Shown here in pieces: positions 21,376 through 31,257 of a DNA stretch of 56,019 nucleotides (positions are counted from its first letter, which is position 1; each line of letters starts with the position of its first letter). The translations under genes and the position numbers were made by a program. The DNA comes from Thermoleophilia bacterium (GTDB taxonomy: Bacteria > Actinomycetota > Thermoleophilia > Miltoncostaeales > Miltoncostaeaceae), in assembly GCA_020848615.1 (NCBI GenBank), contig JADLHW010000074.1:1-56019 (forward strand), read 5' to 3'. The notes beneath the pieces were generated by a model that made no database searches, was not told the DNA's origin, and worked only from the letters and a program-made list of their open reading frames with translations.

Positions 21376-22236
21376 TCAGGTCGTGGCCCCGGCCCGCCGG
21401 TGGGCGGCGTCCAGGGTGTTGGCGAGCAGGTAGGCGATGGTCATGGGGCCGACGCCGCCGGGCACCGGGGTGATCCACCCCGCCACCTCGGCGCACTCCG
21501 CGTAGGCGACGTCCCCCCTGAGGCCGTCGTCGGTGCGGTTGATCCCGACGTCCATCACCGCGGCACCGGGCTTCACCCAGTCGCCGCGGATCATCTCAGG
21601 CCGGCCGACGGCCGCGACGAGGATGTCCGCGGTGCGGCACAGGCTCGGCAGGTCCCGCGTGCGGGAGTGCGCGACGGTGACGGTGCAGTGCTCGGCGAGC
21701 AGCAGCATGGACTGCGGCTTGCCGACGATGAGGCTGCGCCCCACCACCACCGCGTGGGCCCCCACCAGCGGGACCTCCGCGTCCCGCAGCATGCGCATCA
21801 CGCCCTGCGGGGTGCACGGCACGTTCCCGGGCTCCCCGCGCATGAGCCGGCCCAGGTTCACCGGGGAGAACCCGTCGACGTCCTTGTCCGGGTGGATGCG
21901 GTTCGCGATGAGGGGCTCGGACAGCTGGTCGGGCACGGGCAGTTGCACCAGCATCCCGTCGACGGCGTCGTCGGCGTTCAGCTCGTCGATGAGGGCGTCC
22001 AGCTCCGCCTGGCCGGTGGAGTCCGGCAGCGTGATGCGGCGCGGCACCATGCCGGCCTCCTCGGCGGCCCGGGCCTTGCCGGCCTGGTACAGCTCGGAGG
22101 CGGGGTCGTCGCCCACCTGGATGCCCACCAGTCCGGGGGCGCGCCCGTATCGCGCGGCGAAGGCGGCGACGCCCTCCGCGACCTCGGCCCGCACGCGTGC
22201 GGCGGCGGCCTTGCCGTCGATCACGATCGCAGCCAT
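21376..22236 (-). CDS. folD: Bifunctional methylene-THF dehydrogenase/cyclohydrolase FolD
   Basis: A 286-residue cytoplasmic enzyme that oxidises 5,10-methylene-THF to methenyl-THF and hydrolyses it to 10-formyl-THF. It has the catalytic Tyr and Lys in [30 protein letters not shown], the NADP-binding [16 protein letters not shown] and the C-terminal [16 protein letters not shown]. All are standard. The ATG overlaps the pcrA stop (TGATG); a GTG directly before it is an alternative start. It is coupled to the helicase upstream and npdG downstream. Confidence 0.96.
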
Positions 22237-24407
22237 CACACGACCTTTCGCATCGGGGCGGCGCCGGCCATGAGGCGCCGCTCGGTTCCGTCATTGGCGA
22301 AGCGGACGCGCACCAGCTGGCCGCGGCTCTCGACGCCGGTCACGACGCCCTCGCCGAACGTGGCGTGGAGCACGGTGTCGCCGGTCGCGAGGATGACGGG
22401 CGGGGCCGGCGGCGCGGTCGAGCGCCCGGCGAGGGACGATCCGCGCGGCGCGGAGTCCGCGTACGCACGGCGCACCGGCGCGCCGGCGGGGCGCGCGACG
22501 GCGTCGCGGGGGATCTCCGACAGGAACCGGGACGGCAGCTTGTAGTCGCGGCCGCCGTGCATCGCCCGCGTCTCGGCGTGCGTGAGGATGAGCCGGCGGC
22601 GGGCGCGGGTCATGCCGACGTAGCAGAGGCGCCGTTCCTCCTCGAGCGACTCCGGGGTGTCGGAGCGCATGTGCGGGAACACGCCCTCCTCCATGCCCGT
22701 CATGAGCACCACGTCGAACTCCAGGCCCTTCGCGTTGTGGACGGTCATGAGCGTGACCTGCCCGGTGCCCTGGTCCACCAGGTCTGCGTCGGACTGCAGG
22801 GCGATCTCCTCCAGGAACCCCGCGAGCGACGGGTCGTCCGCCTGCCCCTGGTACTCGGCGGCCACGTTCACCAGCTCGTCGAGGTTCTCCAGGCGGCCCT
22901 GGGCCTCCAGGGTGCCCTCGGCCACCAGCGCCGACCGCAGCCCGGACCGCTCGATCGCCGCGTCGATGATCCGGTCCAGCGCGAGGCCGGCGGCGGCGTA
23001 CTGCCCCAGCTCCGCGAGCGTCGCCGCGGTGGCCGCCAGGGCCTGGCGCTGCGCGCCGGTGAGCCCCGGGACCATCTCGGCCTGCGGGATCGCCTCCGCC
23101 GGCGCCAGGTCGTGGTCGCGTGCGAACCGCGTGAGCTTCGCGATGCACCCGGGGCCGATGCCGCGCCTGGGCGCGCCCAGCATGCGGGCCATCGCGATCT
23201 CGTCGGCGGGGTTGGCGACCACGCGCAGGTAGGCGATGAGGTCCCGCACCTCGGCGCGCTCGTAGAAGCGGGGCCCGCCGACCACCGCGTACGCGACGCG
23301 GGCCCGCACCAGCTGGTCCTCGATGGCCCGGCTCTGGGCGTTGGTGCGGTAGAAGACCGCGATCTCCGACAGGGAGGTGCCCTCCGCGAGGGCCCGGTCG
23401 ACCTCGGAGACCACCAGCCGGGCCTCCTCGTGCTCGTCACGGCAGCTGTCGATGCGGATGGGCTCCCCGTCGCCGCGGTCGGTCCACAGCTCCTTCGGCC
23501 GCCGGCCCCGGTTGAGGGCGACCACGGCGTTGGCGGCGCGCAGGATGGTGCCGGTGGACCGGTAGTTCTGCTCCAGCGCCACGATGTGCGCGTCCGGGTA
23601 GTCCCGCTCGAAGTCCAGGATGTTGCGCACGTCCGCGCCGCGCCACGAGTAGATGCCCTGGTCGTCGTCGCCCACGGCGCACACGTTGCGCTGCGGCTCG
23701 GCGAGGACGCGCACCAGCCGGTACTGGGCGTGGTTGGTGTCCTGGTACTCGTCCACCAGCACGTGGCTGAACCGGCGCTGGTAGCGCTCCCGCACCTCTG
23801 CGTCGCCCTCGAGCAGGCGCACCGTGTGCATGAGGAGGTCGTCGAAGTCCATGGCGCCCGCGGTGCGCAGGCGGTCGGCGTACCGCCGGTACAGGCGCAC
23901 CACGATCTCGTCGCCGAACGACGCCGCCTCGTCCGCGAAGCCGTCGGGGTCGAGCAGCCGGTTCTTCGCGTCGGAGATGCGGGTGAGCACGGCCCGCGGG
24001 GCGACCCGCTTGGGGTCGACCTGCTCATCGGTCATGCACGCCCGCATGAGGCGCAGCTGGTCGTCGGCGTCGTAGATCACGAAGCGCGGGTCGAAGCCGG
24101 CCGCCTCGGCGTCGCGACGCAGGATGCGCACGCACGCCGAGTGGAAGGTGCTCGCCCAGATCTCGCGTGCGGCGGGGCCGACGAGGCCGGCGATGCGCTC
24201 GCGCATCTCCCCCGCCGCCTTGTTCGTGAAGGTGATCGCGAGGATCGCCCAGGGCGGCACGCCGCGCTCGGCGATGAGGTGCGCGATGCGGTGCGTGAGC
24301 ACGCGTGTCTTGCCGCTCCCCGCGCCCGCGAGGACCAGCAGGGGTCCGTCCCCGTGCAGCACCGCCTCGCGCTGCGGGGGGTTCAGGGTCTCGAGGAGGT
24401 CGCCCAA
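22236..24407 (-). CDS. pcrA: UvrD/PcrA-type SF1 DNA helicase
   Basis: A 723-residue 3'-5' DNA helicase for repair and removal of RecA or stalled complexes. It contains motif [10 protein letters not shown] (26-34), motif [14 protein letters not shown], motif [16 protein letters not shown], motif [10 protein letters not shown], motif [14 protein letters not shown] and motif [16 protein letters not shown]-terminal Tudor-like domain ([14 protein letters not shown]) as in PcrA binds RNA polymerase in other species. The TTG start lies 9 bases after TAGGAT, a plausible near-leaderless promoter. It is the first gene of an operon with folD and npdG. Confidence 0.95.
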
Positions 24408-24574
24408 CGCACGCGGATCCTACCGGGGCCGGTCACCGGAGCCCCGCCGGGACCGGGCGCCGCCCGGAGCCGGGCCGCGCTTTACATCTCGCTTACAGCC
24501 GCCCCGTCATGGCGGGACGGGCCGCGCGTTGAGGGGGTGTTCGCCGCACACCACGAACCACCGGGAGCCCACAC

Positions 24575-25969
24575 ATGACCCGCCGCACCCGCACCGCGCT
24601 CACGCTCGCCGCCGCCTCCGCCGCCGCGCTCTGCGCCGCCGGCCAGGCCGCCGCCGTTCCCACCGAGCCCGTCCAGAAGGCCGGCCCGGCATTCGCGATC
24701 GGCAGTTCGATCACCGCCGCGTGGAACCCGAGCACCTTCGGGACCTTCTCCAAGGGGCGCAACTACGAGATCCGCCTGCAGGATATGACCGTCGTGTCGC
24801 CGCTCGTGATCGCCACGGTCCCCGCCGCCGAGACCACGCGCACGTTCAGCGGGCTCGACAACGGCCACCGGTACCGGGTGAGCGTCCGGGCGTTCGAGGT
24901 CCCCTGTGTGTTCCTGGCCCCGGGCGGCGGGAGCTGCCTCGCGTACGCGGGCTCGTCGCTGTACTCGACCCCCGACGCCCGGGAGTTCCGGATGGACGCC
25001 ACGGACCCGACCGGCTCGGTGAACATCAACGGCGGCGCCCTCTACACCAACTCCCGCACCGTGAACCTCACCCTCGCCGCGACGGACCCCGCGTCGGCCG
25101 GCCAACCGGCCAGCGGCATCGACGGCGTGCAGATCAGCGAGGACACCACGTTCTCCTGCAACCCGCTGACCAGCACCGCCGATTGCCCGGTCCCGGTGAC
25201 CAACCCCCGCTCCTTCACCCTCGCCGACGGGCTTGACGGCAACAGGACCGTGCGGGTCAGGTACCGGGACAAGGCCTCCCAGTACAACCCGGGCGGGCTC
25301 ATCGCGCTGCTCACCGTCAGCGGCAACGCCTCCGCAACCTCCACCGACACGATCGTCCTGGACCGCTCACAGCCCACCCCAGTGGTCACCATGGGCATCC
25401 CCACCGCCGACGCCGGCGTCCCGGTCGCCTTCTCCGCGGCCGGCTCCACCGACGCCACCAGCGGCGTGGACCCCACCTCGGCGGTGTGGGACTTCGGGGA
25501 CGGCACCGCGCCGGTGAACGCCCTGCAGCTCAACAAGAGCTTCGCGAACCCGGGCACCCACACCGGCAGCCTCACCGTCAGGGACAGGGCCGGCAACACC
25601 AACACCCAGGCGTTCTCGTTCACCGTCACCGGCGCGCCCGCCCCGGGCGGCGGCGGGGTCACCATCACCAACCCGGGCACCGGCACGGCCGCCCTCACCG
25701 ACCCGATCCGCGGGGCGAAGCGCCTCAACCGCGCCGTGCAGGGCAAGAAGCTGCGCATCCGCGTCCGCCTGGCGAACCGCATCCAGGTGCGGGTGAGCAT
25801 CCTGCGCATCGCCGCCTCCGGCCGCGCCGTCGTCCGCCGCCAGGTGCGCACCGCGGGCCCCGGATTCGCGGTGTTCACCTTCACCGCCCCCAAGGCCGGC
25901 CGCCACGTGGTCCGCATCAAGGCCGGCGCCGACACCCTCAGCTTCCCCATGGGCATCGCCAGGAGGTGA
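24575..25969 (+). CDS. Secreted Ig-like/PKD protein, tandem paralog 1
   Basis: A 464-residue exported protein, first of three adjacent paralogs. Order of parts: a signal peptide (1-28, ends GQAAA); a beta domain with a GHRYRVSVRAF strand (about 30-120); an Ig-like domain starting DPTGSVNINGG (about 148-255) with two cysteines; a PKD domain around AVWDFGDGTAPVNAL (about 268-355); a Gly/Pro linker; and a C-terminal basic beta domain (LRIRVRLANRIQVRV to the end). No sorting signal or membrane anchor is seen. GGGAG precedes the ATG. The 3' half is nearly identical in DNA to paralogs 2 and 3. It may be a surface-layer or adhesive protein; function is not known. Confidence 0.82.
   Translation: MTRRTRTALTLAAASAAALCAAGQAAAVPTEPVQKAGPAFAIGSSITAAWNPSTFGTFSKGRNYEIRLQDMTVVSPLVIATVPAAETTRTFSGLDNGHRYRVSVRAFEVPCVFLAPGGGSCLAYAGSSLYSTPDAREFRMDATDPTGSVNINGGALYTNSRTVNLTLAATDPASAGQPASGIDGVQISEDTTFSCNPLTSTADCPVPVTNPRSFTLADGLDGNRTVRVRYRDKASQYNPGGLIALLTVSGNASATSTDTIVLDRSQPTPVVTMGIPTADAGVPVAFSAAGSTDATSGVDPTSAVWDFGDGTAPVNALQLNKSFANPGTHTGSLTVRDRAGNTNTQAFSFTVTGAPAPGGGGVTITNPGTGTAALTDPIRGAKRLNRAVQGKKLRIRVRLANRIQVRVSILRIAASGRAVVRRQVRTAGPGFAVFTFTAPKAGRHVVRIKAGADTLSFPMGIARR
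25346..25969 (+). repeat. Long direct repeat, copy 1
   Basis: This 624-base segment encodes the PKD and C-terminal domains. It is repeated at 26809 and 28271 with only scattered differences; copy 3 is the same length and closest. The 5' halves of the genes are far less alike. Confidence 0.9.
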
Positions 25970-25980
25970 ACCGGCGGCAC

Positions 25981-26005
25981 GCGTGCCCGGCCCCGCCGGG
26001 CACGC
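25981..26005 (+). terminator. Hairpin between paralogs 1 and 2
   Basis: GCGTGCCCGGC and GCCGGGCACGC form an 11-base-pair stem with a CCC loop, 12 bases after the stop of paralog 1. It may terminate or protect that transcript. No similar stem follows paralog 2 this closely. Confidence 0.6.
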
Positions 26006-26049
26006 CTCCCCGCCCGTCCGCGTCCCGCCCGAGTGATCAGGAGCCCCAC

Positions 26050-27465
26050 ATGACCCGTCGCACCCGCATCGCGCTCGCCTCGTCCGCCGCGGCGCTCGCC
26101 ATCGCCTGTCCCGCCGCCGCCGACCCCACCGCCCCGGTCCTGAAGACCGGCCCCGAGTTCGCGACCGGGACGTCGATCACCCCGGCCTGGACCCCCAGCA
26201 CGTTCTCGAGCCACTCCACCGGCCGCCACTACGAGCTGCGGGCCGCGGACACCACCACCTCCAGCACCGTGAAGGTGGATGTCCCGGCCGACCAGCAGCG
26301 CCGGACACTCGGCGGCGTCGAGAACGGCCACCGGTATGTGCTGTCGGTGCGCGCGGTCGAGCGCGAGTGCCTCCTCGTCTCGCCCGCCCCGGGCGGTGGA
26401 TGCGCCCTCTACTCCCCGTCCGAGACCGCCAGCGCCTACTCGTGGCGAGAGGTCCGGATGGACCAGACGGACCCGACGGGCTCGGTGAGCATCAACGGCG
26501 GCGCCCAGTACGCCACCTCACGGAACGTCACCCTGCAGCTGGCCGCCACCGACCCGCCGTCGGCCGGGGGCCCCGCCAGTGGTGTGGAGGGCGTCCAGAT
26601 CAGCCAGGACGCGACGTTCGCCTGCCAGCTGCTGGGCGACACCTCCGAGTGCCCGCTGCCGTTCGCCAACTCCAGGGCCCACACCCTGGACGAGGGTCCC
26701 GACGGGGGCCGCACCGTCCGGGTGCGGTACCGCGACGCGGCGGCGGCCTACGACCCGGGTGGGCTGGTGTTCGCGCCGGCCAGCGGCAACGCGTCGGCGG
26801 TGGCCTCCGACACCATCACCCTGGACCGCTCCCAGCCGACACCGGTGGTCACCACGGACGTGCCGTCGGCCGACGCCGGCGTCCCGGTCGCCTTCTCCGC
26901 GGCGAGCTCCACCGACGCCACCAGCGGGGTCAACACCGCCTCCGCGCGGTGGGACTTCGGCGACGGCACCGCGCCGGTCAACGCCCTGCAGCTCAACAAG
27001 AGCTTCGCGAACCCGGGCACCCACACCGGCAGCCTCACCATCAAGGACAAGGCCGGCAACACCAACACCCGGCCGTTCTCGTTCACCGTCACCGGGGCGC
27101 CCGCCCCGGACGGCGGCGGGGTGACCGTCACCGACCCCGGCAGCGCCGCCACGCCCGACCCCGGCACCGCCGCCACGCCCGGCGCCACCCTCACCGACCC
27201 GATCCGCGGGGCGAAGCGCCTCAATCGCGCCGTGCAGGGCAAGAAGCTGCGCATCCGCGTCCGCCTGGCGAACCGCATCCAGGTCCGCGTCCAGATCCTG
27301 CGTGTCAATCGCGGCGGCCGCACCGTCGTGCGCCGGCAGGTGCGCACCGCGGGCCCCGGGTTCGCGGTGTTCACCTTCACCGCCCCCAAGGCCGGCCGGC
27401 ACGTGGTCCGCATCCGGGCCGGCGCCGACAGCCTCACCTTCCCCATGGGCATCGCGCGGCGATGA
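26050..27465 (+). CDS. Secreted Ig-like/PKD protein, tandem paralog 2
   Basis: A 471-residue exported protein with the same plan as its neighbours: signal peptide (1-23), a GHRYVLSVRAV beta domain, an Ig-like domain beginning DPTGSVSINGG, PKD around ARWDFGDGTAPVNAL, and the basic C-terminal beta domain. Its linker carries an 11-residue insertion rich in Ala, Thr and Pro (PGSAATPDPGTAATPG), absent from paralogs 1 and 3 and built from a short internal duplication. AGGAG lies 6-7 bases before the ATG. The Ig-like domain keeps two cysteines. The N-terminal half has diverged from the sisters while the C-terminal half is almost the same. Confidence 0.82.
   Translation: MTRRTRIALASSAAALAIACPAAADPTAPVLKTGPEFATGTSITPAWTPSTFSSHSTGRHYELRAADTTTSSTVKVDVPADQQRRTLGGVENGHRYVLSVRAVERECLLVSPAPGGGCALYSPSETASAYSWREVRMDQTDPTGSVSINGGAQYATSRNVTLQLAATDPPSAGGPASGVEGVQISQDATFACQLLGDTSECPLPFANSRAHTLDEGPDGGRTVRVRYRDAAAAYDPGGLVFAPASGNASAVASDTITLDRSQPTPVVTTDVPSADAGVPVAFSAASSTDATSGVNTASARWDFGDGTAPVNALQLNKSFANPGTHTGSLTIKDKAGNTNTRPFSFTVTGAPAPDGGGVTVTDPGSAATPDPGTAATPGATLTDPIRGAKRLNRAVQGKKLRIRVRLANRIQVRVQILRVNRGGRTVVRRQVRTAGPGFAVFTFTAPKAGRHVVRIRAGADSLTFPMGIARR
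26809..27465 (+). repeat. Long direct repeat, copy 2
   Basis: A 657-base version of the repeat seen at 25346. It is longer by 33 bases because of an in-frame linker insertion near 27130-27180 made of two similar Ala/Thr/Pro units. Confidence 0.88.
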
Positions 27466-27508
27466 GCCGCGGTACCCCCGTGACCCCGCCGACCGCTCAG
27501 GAGCCGAC

Positions 27509-28894
27509 ATGACGCACCGCACCCGCATCGCCCTCGCCGCGTCCACCGCGGTCCTCGCCACCGCCGGCGCCGCCTCGGCCGCACCCGGCATCCCCCTGCA
27601 GAAGGACGGCCCGTCGTACGCGACCGGCACCTCCGTCACGATGGCCTGGAACGCCGCGACGTTCACGCCCCTGTCGAAGAGCCGCGAGTACGTCTACGAG
27701 GTCGTCGACATGACCGACGGCGGGGCCGTGGACGTGGAGAACAACCTCCCGGCGACGACGCTGTTCGTCCAGGTTCCCGGCCGCGAGAACGGCCACCGGT
27801 ACCGCCTCAGCGTGTACGCCCGCGAACAGCCGTGCGCGGCGGCACTCGCCGGCCCACCCCCGGTGTGCATCGCGTACGGCCCGTCGACCCGGGGCACCGC
27901 CCACCTCCAGTACGTCCGGATGGATGCCACCGGTCCGCAGGGCTCGGTCCAGATCGACGGCGGGGCGCAGTACGCCCGATCGCGAGACGTGATCCTCGGT
28001 CTCACGGCGACGGACCCGCCGTCGGCGGGCCAGCCGTCCAGCGGCGTCGACAACGTGCAGATCAGTCAGGACGCCACATTCGTGTGCGAGCTCTTCGGAG
28101 ACAGGTCCGATTGCCCGGTGCCGATGGCCGCCAGCCGCGCCTACGTCCTCGACGAGGGGCCTGACGGCCAGCGAACCGTCCGCGTGAAGTACCGGGACAA
28201 GGCGTCCCCGTTCAGCCCGGGCGCGCCCGTGTTCACCGATACCGACGGGAACGCCTCCGGCACGTACACGGACACGATCGTCCTGGACCGCTCCCAGCCG
28301 ACCCCCGTGGTCACCATGGGCGTGCCGTCGGCCGACGCCGGCGTCCCGGTCGCCTTCTCCGCGGCGAGCTCCACCGACGCCACCAGCGGCGTGGACCCCA
28401 CCTCGGCGGTGTGGGACTTCGGGGACGGCACCGCGCCGGTGAACGCCCTGCAGCTCAACAAGAGCTTCGCGAACCCGGGCACCCACGCCGGCAGCCTCAC
28501 CGTCAGGGACAGGGCCGGCAACACCAACACCCAGGCGTTCTCGTTCACCGTCACCGGGGCGCCCGCCCCGGGCGGCGGCGGGGTCAGCATCACCAACCCG
28601 GGCACCGGCACGGCCGCCCTCACCGACCCGATCCGCGGGGCGAAGCGCCTCAACCGCGCCGTGCAGGGCAAGAAGCTGCGCATCCGCGTCCGCCTGGCGA
28701 ACCGTATCCAGGTGCGGGTGAGCATCCTGCGCATCGCCGCCTCCGGCCGCGCCGTCGTGCGCCGCCAGGTGCGCACCGCGGGCCCCGGGTTCGCGGTGTT
28801 CACCTTCACCGCCCCCAAGGCCGGCCGCCACGTGGTCCGCATCAAGGCCGGCGCCGACACCCTCAGCTTCCCCATGGGCATCGCGCGGCGATGA
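27509..28894 (+). CDS. Secreted Ig-like/PKD protein, tandem paralog 3
   Basis: A 461-residue exported protein. It has a signal peptide (1-23, ends AGAASA), a GHRYRLSVYAREQ beta domain, an Ig-like domain beginning with GPQGSVQIDGG and containing two cysteines, a PKD domain (AVWDFGDGTAPVNAL) and the shared basic C-terminal domain. AGGAG sits 5-6 bases before the ATG. The 3' half matches paralog 1 almost base for base. As in the sisters, a dozen residues at the very start (MTHRTRIAL) are conserved in the DNA as well, suggesting the whole gene was duplicated and the N-terminal exposed domains then drifted or were selected to differ. Confidence 0.82.
   Translation: MTHRTRIALAASTAVLATAGAASAAPGIPLQKDGPSYATGTSVTMAWNAATFTPLSKSREYVYEVVDMTDGGAVDVENNLPATTLFVQVPGRENGHRYRLSVYAREQPCAAALAGPPPVCIAYGPSTRGTAHLQYVRMDATGPQGSVQIDGGAQYARSRDVILGLTATDPPSAGQPSSGVDNVQISQDATFVCELFGDRSDCPVPMAASRAYVLDEGPDGQRTVRVKYRDKASPFSPGAPVFTDTDGNASGTYTDTIVLDRSQPTPVVTMGVPSADAGVPVAFSAASSTDATSGVDPTSAVWDFGDGTAPVNALQLNKSFANPGTHAGSLTVRDRAGNTNTQAFSFTVTGAPAPGGGGVSITNPGTGTAALTDPIRGAKRLNRAVQGKKLRIRVRLANRIQVRVSILRIAASGRAVVRRQVRTAGPGFAVFTFTAPKAGRHVVRIKAGADTLSFPMGIARR
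28271..28894 (+). repeat. Long direct repeat, copy 3
   Basis: A 624-base repeat nearly identical to 25346-25969. Most differences are clustered in the first 100 bases (for example GVPSAD instead of GIPTAD); the rest has only a handful of changes. Confidence 0.9.
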
Positions 28895-29368
28895 GCTGCG
28901 GCCCCCTCACCGGGCGGCTCGCTCGCGGGGGACGCCGGTTCTGGCCGGTGTCCCGGCCGCGTCCCCCGCTCCACCACACGGCCTCGGTCTACGACGCCCT
29001 CGCGCGGCGGGCCGGCCCGGACCCCGGGAGGGACGCCATGCCCCGCATGCGCCGCATCCCTCCCGGGTGACCGGGCCCGTCCGCATCGCCGTGGGCGCCT
29101 CCGGACGCGCCCCCGTTTCCCGCATGCCACCCGACCGCGAAGGGCCAGCCGCAATGACCCGCCACGACATCAACGCCCCCCTGTGTCTCACCGACGCCAA
29201 CCGCCGCCGACGCCCCCGTGTGTCCCGGGCGACCGGGCCCGCGGACCGCCCGGTGCCCTCGACGCACATCGCCGGACGGTGAACGGACCGCTCGACAGGG
29301 ACGGCTCCACCGACGGCGGCGCCGGCGCACGCCGGCGCCGCCACACCCGTGCCCGAACCACCCCGCCC
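28895..29368 (+). other. Hairpin-rich gap upstream of the sigma gene
   Basis: No convincing gene lies in these 474 bases. Four inverted repeats with perfect stems do: GCGGGGGACGC/GCGTCCCCCGC (28925-28969), CCCGGGAGGGA/TCCCTCCCGGG (29023-29067), ACCGGGC/GCCCGGT (29232-29254) and GGCGGCGCCGGC/GCCGGCGCCGCC with a GCAC loop (29315-29342). The last is a likely terminator. A 42-codon frame at 29154-29282 (MTRHDINAPL...) with a weak AAGGG site begins like the paralogs and may be the start of a decayed fourth copy. A 10-codon frame (MPRMRRIPPG) lies inside the second hairpin. The region may be a structured RNA or a remnant. Confidence 0.5.
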
Positions 29369-29539
29369 ATGGATCTGCGCGAACGGATGCTGGCCGATTG
29401 GTCAGCCCTGGGGCTGCGAAGACTGACCGCCTACCTGGCGCGTCACGCGGCCTTCGAGGATTATCTTCGCGCCACACATCGGAAAGGCCCGGACCAGTGC
29501 CCACAAGCACCCGCCCAGACGGACCGCTCGGCCCGATGA
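29369..29539 (+). CDS. Possible small protein coupled to the sigma gene
   Basis: A 56-codon frame: MDLRERMLADWSALGLRR, then LTAYLARHAAFEDYLRATH and a polar tail. The first 40 residues would form amphipathic helices. Its TGA overlaps the ATG of the sigma factor by 4 bases (ATGA), like many true gene pairs in this window. No good ribosome binding site precedes its ATG, and the DNA is less GC-biased than neighbouring genes. It could be a leader peptide, a small regulator or chance. Confidence 0.4.
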   Translation: MDLRERMLADWSALGLRRLTAYLARHAAFEDYLRATHRKGPDQCPQAPAQTDRSAR

Positions 29540-30534
29540 CCGACGAGCAGCTCTCCCGCCTCGCGACCAACGGCGACCAGGAGGCGTTCCTGGAGCTGTT
29601 CACCCGGCACGAGCACGGCCTGCTCAACTTCTGCCACCGGCTCACGGGGAACCGGGAGGACGCCGCCGACCTGGTGCAGGAGAGCTTCCTGCGCGTCTTC
29701 GCCCGCCTCCCCGCCCTGGAGGGCCGGGACGTGAACCTGGCGGCGTACCTTCGCCGCACCGCCCGGAACCTCGCGTACGACGCGGCGTCCGGCCGGGTCG
29801 GCGAGGTGATGGTGGACGACATGGAGGTCGTCGCCGGCGCGGACGACGCGCTGGAGGCCGACCCGGAGCGGGCGATGCTCCTGGGCGACCAGCAGGCCGC
29901 GGTGCAGCGGGCCAACGCCGCGCTGCCGGAGCGCCACCGCCTCGCCCTCGCGCTGCGCGAGCTCGAGGACATGGACTACGCGCAGATCGGCGAGGTCCTG
30001 GAGGTCACCCCGGATGCCGTCGGCCAGATCCTGGTGCGCGCCCGGCTGGGACTGCGGCGGCAGCTGCGCCTGGCCTCGGTCGACGAGGAGCGCATGGCGC
30101 CCGCGTGCCGTGCCCGCCTGGGCGAGGTGGGCGCGCTCATCGACGGCCAGCTCGACCACGACCGCGCCCACGTCCTGCGGCAGCACCTGGCGGCATGTGC
30201 CACGTGCGCCCAGGTCCGGGCGGCGTTCGAGGACGCCCGCATCCGCTACCGGGCCTGGCTGCCCATCCCCCTCATCATGGGGCTCGGCCTGTCCACCCTG
30301 CGCACCGCGCGGGACCGCGGCCTGCTGGAGCAGTTCACCGACTCCATCTCATGGGGTGACGACGGCGGGGCCGGCGGCCAGCTGGGCGGCGCCGGCCAGG
30401 AGGTCACCGGTGGCGCCGGCATGGGCGGCGCGGCGGGCGGCGGCGGCCGGGTGATGTCGCAGGCGGCCGCCGGCGGCGGCGGCGCGGCGGGCATCGCCGG
30501 TGCGGCGGCCGACTCCCTGTGGGGCTCGTGGTAG
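29536..30534 (+). CDS. ECF sigma factor fused to a zinc anti-sigma-like domain
   Basis: A 332-residue protein. Residues 8-85 form sigma region 2 (LTGNREDAADLVQESFLRVF) and 130-180 region 4 (LPERHRLALALRELEDMDYAQIG, then helix-turn-helix VTPDAVGQILVRAR). It then continues into a ZAS-like zinc-binding segment: Cys191, His217-x3-Cys221-x2-Cys224 in CRARLGEVGALIDGQLD and QHLAACATC. A short hydrophobic stretch (241-255, WLPIPLIMGLGLSTL) and a Gly-rich tail of about 60 residues follow. Anti-sigma domains are usually separate proteins, so this is a self-contained sigma/anti-sigma fusion. ATG 29536 overlaps the small upstream frame; GTG 29497 with GGAAAGG upstream would add 13 residues. A Pro-rich membrane protein follows 12 bases later. 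Confidence 0.88.
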   Translation: MTDEQLSRLATNGDQEAFLELFTRHEHGLLNFCHRLTGNREDAADLVQESFLRVFARLPALEGRDVNLAAYLRRTARNLAYDAASGRVGEVMVDDMEVVAGADDALEADPERAMLLGDQQAAVQRANAALPERHRLALALRELEDMDYAQIGEVLEVTPDAVGQILVRARLGLRRQLRLASVDEERMAPACRARLGEVGALIDGQLDHDRAHVLRQHLAACATCAQVRAAFEDARIRYRAWLPIPLIMGLGLSTLRTARDRGLLEQFTDSISWGDDGGAGGQLGGAGQEVTGGAGMGGAAGGGGRVMSQAAAGGGGAAGIAGAAADSLWGSW

Positions 30535-30546
30535 CGGCGCCGCAGG

Positions 30547-31257
30547 GTGATCTCCGCCCTCGGCGGCGCCATCGTGCTGCTGGCCGTCGCGGGCGGCTCC
30601 GCCCTGTTCGCGATCCGCGGCGACGAGCCCTCCCGGGACATCGTCACCCTGGCGTCCGGGGACGTCACCGCGGACGTCGCCCAGGCGATCCCGCTGGCCG
30701 CCGCACAGGAGCTGCCCAAGCCGCCGCTGCCCGGCGCGCCGGCGCCGGACACCGCCCCGGGCGGCACGGATCCGTCGGCACCCGCGGCCCCGGACGACCC
30801 TGCGGCGTCACCCGCCGCCGCGACGACGCCCGCGACCCCCGCCGCCAGGCGCCGCGCCCCGCGGGTCCGCACCGTCGCGCCCGCCGGATCGACGCCCCAG
30901 GTCACCGTCGCCGCGACCCCCGAGACACCGCAGCAGCCCACGCCGGCGGCGGCCCCGGAGACCACCACCTCGGCGCCGCCGGTCACGACCTCGGCGCCGC
31001 CGGTCACCACCGTCCGGCAACCGCCGCCGGTCACCACCGTCCGGCAACCGCCCCCCGTCACGACCGTCCGGCAACCGCCGCCGGTCACGACGACCCGCGA
31101 GCCCCCGCCGGTCACCACCGAGCGGACGCCCAACGACCCGCCGCCGGTCACCACCGTGCGGGTCCCCACGATCCGCACGATCATCCAGGTCCCCCCGGTC
31201 ACCACGATCCGGATCCCCACCATCCGGATCCCGCCACCGAACCCTCCGCCCTCCTGA
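30547..31257 (+). CDS. Membrane-anchored Pro/Thr-repeat protein
   Basis: A 236-residue protein with an N-terminal membrane helix (about 2-23, ISALGGAIVLLAVAGGSAL). A long extracytoplasmic tail rich in Pro, Ala, Thr and Val follows. The tail contains PPPVTTVRQ three times in a row and further PPVTT units to the end (PTIRIPPPNPPPS). There is no enzymatic domain. Such tails span or bind the cell wall. It starts (GTG) 12 bases after the ECF sigma gene, so it is in the same transcript and may be its membrane partner or target. It ends inside a 30-base palindrome shared with the convergent cysE stop. Confidence 0.72.
   Translation: MISALGGAIVLLAVAGGSALFAIRGDEPSRDIVTLASGDVTADVAQAIPLAAAQELPKPPLPGAPAPDTAPGGTDPSAPAAPDDPAASPAAATTPATPAARRRAPRVRTVAPAGSTPQVTVAATPETPQQPTPAAAPETTTSAPPVTTSAPPVTTVRQPPPVTTVRQPPPVTTVRQPPPVTTTREPPPVTTERTPNDPPPVTTVRVPTIRTIIQVPPVTTIRIPTIRIPPPNPPPS
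31000..31080 (+). repeat. Three 27-base tandem repeats in a coding region
   Basis: Three consecutive 27-base units, each encoding PPVTTVRQP in rotation, differ by only a few third-position changes. They lie inside the Pro/Thr-rich tail and probably expand or contract by slippage. Confidence 0.9.

Follow-up and report, generated by a model that had tools for sequence, protein, structure and literature searches.

Evidence for segmental gene conversion of the 3' part of three tandem genes for secreted beta-sandwich proteins in a Thermoleophilia bacterium

How can three neighbouring genes be so alike in one half and so different in the other? The question is raised by a tandem array in the window analysed here, a stretch of 56,019 nt from a Thermoleophilia bacterium. 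The three genes lie on the forward strand: copy 1 (g1) at 24575–25969 (464 aa), copy 2 (g2) at 26050–27465 (471 aa) and copy 3 (g3) at 27509–28894 (461 aa), with intergenic gaps of 80 bp (g1-g2) and 43 bp (g2-g3). Each has its own start codon, a plausible ribosome-binding site and, by inspection, a plausible signal peptide; a promoter and terminator scan of the array gave no signal above chance. The array is flanked by pcrA/uvrD (22236–24407, reverse strand) and a sigma-factor gene (ORF 29218–30534, forward strand), and stands far from either end of its contig, which measures at least 56 kb, in a draft assembly of 183 contigs.

The sigma-factor ORF is itself peculiar. It is broken by an in-frame TAG at 30532–30534, ahead of the part that codes for a hydrophobic segment and a tail rich in Thr and Pro; the reading frame goes on past this codon, and the same region in the sibling species introduced below is a single ORF (L036 4561–6870, 769 aa). 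The TAG is either a nonsense change splitting the sigma-factor protein or a sequencing error. At 30995–31120, 27-nt tandem repeats (4.7 copies) code for the PPPVTTVRQ-type tail of this gene, and the sibling has them too.

The product of g1 comprises a signal peptide, an Fn3-like domain, an Ig-like domain, a PKD domain and a C-terminal Ig-like domain, and the architecture of g2 and g3 matches it by alignment. The 5' halves, which the earlier note took to code for outer Ig-like domains, therefore code for an Fn3-like followed by an Ig-like domain. This assignment relies on profiles and on a predicted structure. The PKD profile PF18911 scores 50.5 and 48.2 bits in the two copies scanned, g1 and g3, against a gathering cut-off of 27; the Fn3 profile PF00041 is marginal in g1 (25.5 bits, cut-off 25), and at E 0.1 it was without a match in g3, where the query started three codons early. 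An AlphaFold2 model of g1 built from 12 homologues (mean pLDDT 81; an earlier fold from five sequences, before seven distant homologues were added, had reached 48) displays four beta domains: Fn3-like at residues ~30–140, Ig-like at 141–262, PKD at 264–353 and, after a low-confidence linker, C-terminal Ig-like at 377–464. In this model the PKD domain resembles the PKD structures of the clostridial collagenases ColG/ColH (Z 13–14; for 4aqo, Z 14.1 and rmsd 1.0 across 86 residues), and residues 27–140 resemble an Fn3 domain of integrin beta4 (Z 9.9, rmsd 2.4 over 92). The C-terminal domain falls below the cut-off of every curated family and is rare in relatives. We considered whether it is a general sorting or anchor domain; its profile (A5) has four matches in its own genome and 0–3 in each of 15 relatives, so that it is not a genome-wide anchor. 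Neither a catalytic domain, nor an LPXTG motif, nor a transmembrane anchor was seen by domain searches and inspection.

When the genes are compared base by base (codon alignment), identity rises in an abrupt step in all three pairs: from 64.4% to 96.8% at 25346/28271 for g1-g3, from 63.4% to 91.5% at 26820/28282 for g2-g3, and from 68.0% to 90.4% at 25406/26869 for g1-g2. The gains in log-likelihood from these breakpoints are 127, 80 and 51 respectively; none of 300 codon shuffles gave more than about 12. The step lies at residues 258–278, which is the Ig/PKD junction of the g1 model. Upstream of it are the diverged 5' halves, whose four-fold sites are near saturation: 24575–25345 in g1 (coding for the signal peptide and the Fn3-like and Ig-like domains; 64–68% nucleotide identity to g2 and g3), 26050–26819 in g2 and 27509–28270 in g3. 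The clear divergence of the 5' halves noticed earlier is thus borne out (63–68% nucleotide identity, dS 0.58–0.72). They are nevertheless homologous, alignable among the copies over their whole length at 50–58% amino acid identity, which disposes of the idea of unrelated genes fused to one shared 3' module.

Downstream of the step, the near identity first reported for all three copies applies to g1 and g3 only. Their homogenised tracts, delimited by likelihood breakpoints, are 25346–25959 in g1, covering the PKD domain, the linker and the C-terminal domain, and its partner 28271–28884 in g3. Between them 16 of the 614 nt are different; the core (25406–25959) has 8 differences in 554 nt, and the longest identical run is 119 nt. 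The tract is delimited at each end: the 60 nt 5' of it are 47% identical, it stops 7 nt short of the g1 stop codon, past the stop the alignment is no better than shuffled, and the DNA outside is unrelated on either flank. The corresponding part of g2 (26820–27465; 91.5% to g3, 90.4% to g1) is a mosaic at 89–91% to the other copies, made of older and younger patches, with a 33-nt insertion in the linker and a diverged patch near 27285–27336. Its match to g3 includes the last codons and the stop codon, then runs ~10 nt further. There were probably at least two conversion events, of different age.

Synonymous sites repeat this division. The dS values (NG86) for the 5' and 3' halves are 0.58 and 0.09 for g1-g3, 0.72 and 0.13 for g2-g3, and 0.67 and 0.21 for g1-g2; the equal synonymous divergence that the earlier note had named as the sign against conversion is not what we find. 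Corrected for codon bias, the four-fold-site distance of g1-g3 is 0.08 in the 3' half (CI 0.04–0.13), and that of the 5' halves within the genome is 0.78 or saturated. Silent-site run tests (sum-of-squares) are significant for g1-g3 (P 0.001) and g2-g3 (P 0.003).

The decisive comparison is with a sibling species (G001; LNFL01, MAG Ga0077560), one genome per species being compared, both draft. In G001, two copies of the gene stand in syntenic position, next to the same sigma factor and the same cysE, cysK and adenosine-kinase-like genes. These two copies show no recent homogenisation (3' dS 0.56 versus 5' dS 0.71), and the silent-site run test on them is not significant. Because they are not homogenised, the 3' half cannot be intrinsically slow at synonymous sites. 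Between species the 3'-half dS is 0.41–0.64, and the orthologous neighbour genes stand at dS 0.39–0.52 (four-fold distance 0.66–1.06), which makes the conversion younger than the species split; it falls at some one-tenth to one-third of the species-split distance. Trees of the 3'-half DNA reject the positional-orthology topologies that were tried (AU P ~0.0004 or less). The 5'-half trees are star-like and largely without resolution, and do not separate an expansion before speciation from one after it. The 5' halves differ within the genome about as much as between species; they are old paralogues, split about as early as the species or earlier and not by fast change inside one strain, and with synonymous sites near saturation this age is a lower bound only.

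The PKD and C-terminal part was copied among the three genes after the split from the sibling, the latest time between g1 and g3. Being recent, specific to this lineage and limited at both ends, the homogenisation points to ectopic gene conversion, and the explanation by gene conversion proposed in the earlier note is supported by the unequal dS, the bounded tract, the sibling that is not homogenised and the 3' trees. We estimate at about 85% the probability that the array is a tandem family of secreted beta-sandwich proteins under segmental concerted evolution, by ectopic conversion of the 3' part. As for the mechanism, RecA-type ectopic conversion would act where the likeness between copies still allows pairing: the 3' half, under structural constraint, would remain convertible, and the fast-evolving 5' half would have fallen below the pairing threshold (~64% identity), so that exchange would end at the Ig/PKD boundary. 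Ordinary conversion would suffice, with no need for a dedicated system. That the tract border is a domain border could be due to selection, or simply to conservation starting there.

The protein sequences diverge in the same direction. Between species, protein identity is 73–78% for the 3' half and 47–56% for the 5' half; by domain it is 37–40% for Fn3, 61–63% for the Ig-like domain and 70–89% for the PKD and C-terminal domains. Among the neighbour proteins, five of six are 83–94% identical and one 79%. The Fn3 domain, with 37–49% identity between copies of the array, is the fastest-diverging, and its variation spreads beyond the loops. From the fold, the conserved C-terminal part may serve for attachment or as a structural stalk, and the Fn3/Ig part at the N terminus may face outward, with a binding that would differ between copies. 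The fast divergence of Fn3 is compatible with an exposed, ligand-facing head and diversification of ligands, or with relaxed constraint.

The earlier note suggested a possible antigenic or ligand-variation system; in such a system active recombination would serve diversity by keeping variable N-terminal parts on a homogenised C-terminal stalk. This reading is about purpose and may overlap with segmental conversion, and the low identity of Fn3 between siblings, far under that of most neighbour proteins, is in its favour, as is the coincidence of recombination boundary and domain boundary. We nevertheless find it unsupported and consider it unlikely. DNA and protein searches of the assembled genome for silent or partial cassettes returned only the three full-length copies, each with a start codon and a plausible ribosome-binding site of its own, and one distant paralogue (37–40% aa). 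Tandem repeat searches (TRF) revealed no phase-variable repeats, only short imperfect repeats at 24435–24641 and, in the linker of g2 (27131–27181), a duplication of 24 nt, and no recombinase was found among the neighbours of the array examined. Besides, the exchange is limited to the part that is conserved, and no recent exchange between copies is seen in the variable 5' halves; the 5' divergence is old, the Fn3 variation is not confined to loops, and nothing points to host or immune pressure. In the cassette-type variation of pilE/pilS or vlsE, by contrast, silent or partial cassettes feed one expressed locus and recombination renews the variable region; here the assembled genome has no such cassettes, and recombination touches the conserved part only. 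A related reading, to which we give a slightly better though still low chance, is that of a maintained diversification locus: conversion would keep a common stalk, selection would halt exchange at the domain boundary, and the Fn3/Ig heads would be selected to diverge, each to bind its own partner, whether phage, prey, polymer or neighbouring cell.

Alternatively, whole genes might have been duplicated recently and their 5' halves then swapped for divergent alleles, brought in from paralogues or other strains by domain shuffling. This would account for 5' halves as different within the genome as between species, next to 3' halves that are young within the genome. However, such duplications should have left shared intergenic DNA, yet the g1-g3 match ends 7 nt inside the gene between unrelated flanks; moreover donor 5' halves were not found elsewhere in the genome, and the three pairs differ in breakpoint and age. 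We regard this scenario as quite improbable. A short-read assembler cross-joining similar copies is very improbable: a draft in 183 contigs, a sibling assembly that breaks at the corresponding array and identical g1-g3 runs of 119 nt give it some ground, but the 16 differences are scattered along a tract that is not identical, the flanks are distinct, the frames intact and the array well inside its contig. Last, strong protein or codon constraint on the 3' half without recombination would fit its better protein conservation between species, but it is ruled out by the sibling comparison, where 3' dS is ordinary both between species and between the sibling's own paralogues.

The family extends beyond the two species. 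The genus of the source genome has three copies here and at least two in G001, where one contig ends inside the array (C159, L036:9534) and another starts inside pcrA (C101, L045). In another genus of the bacterial family (G010) a single copy, 44% identical to g1, adjoins a related sigma factor (L039). Remoter members are found in G004 and G015 and at other loci of G000, G001 and G010, and collection scans for further named relatives yielded nothing apart from the sibling and PKD proteins of a generic kind. A further paralogue of G001 (C55, L037:6284–7303) ends just after the PKD domain, without the C-terminal domain; it is possibly a truncation or a pseudogene. The papers searched include none that joins Thermoleophilia with the PKD domain. 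With secreted PKD and Fn3 proteins at large (PF18911, PF00801, PF00041) the array proteins share common profile matches, and with ColG/ColH the PKD fold; they differ in having no visible catalytic domain or anchor motif.

The array offers a clear and quantifiable case of conversion that halts where one domain meets the next, in an actinobacterial lineage that has been little studied, and calls for caution with whole-gene phylogenies of such families. It also indicates that the adhesin-type pattern of converted stalk and diverging head arises without the cassettes and switching of pathogens. The closest parallel is with the surface-protein paralogues homA/homB and babA/babB of Helicobacter pylori, whose 3' segments are likewise homogenised within a genome while the 5' segments diverge independently. 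Segment 3 of homA/homB has a Ks of 0.051 within strains versus 0.202 between, with divergent 5' segments (PMC2795765), and the pattern of both pairs has been explained by gene conversion within the genome, acting on a segment under structural constraint (PMC2795765, PMC3960876). The same relation holds here: the 3' dS is lower within the genome (0.09–0.21) than between genomes (0.41–0.64), and the adjacent 5' segment is not homogenised (0.58–0.72). On the other hand, the H. pylori genes lie at separate loci, encode outer-membrane proteins and are known to switch, whereas the array, without sign of switching, belongs to an unrelated Fn3/Ig/PKD family, in tandem, in an uncultured environmental actinobacterium. 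The novelty is modest: the segmental pattern is known, and this is a new instance of it, in a new protein family and a new lineage.
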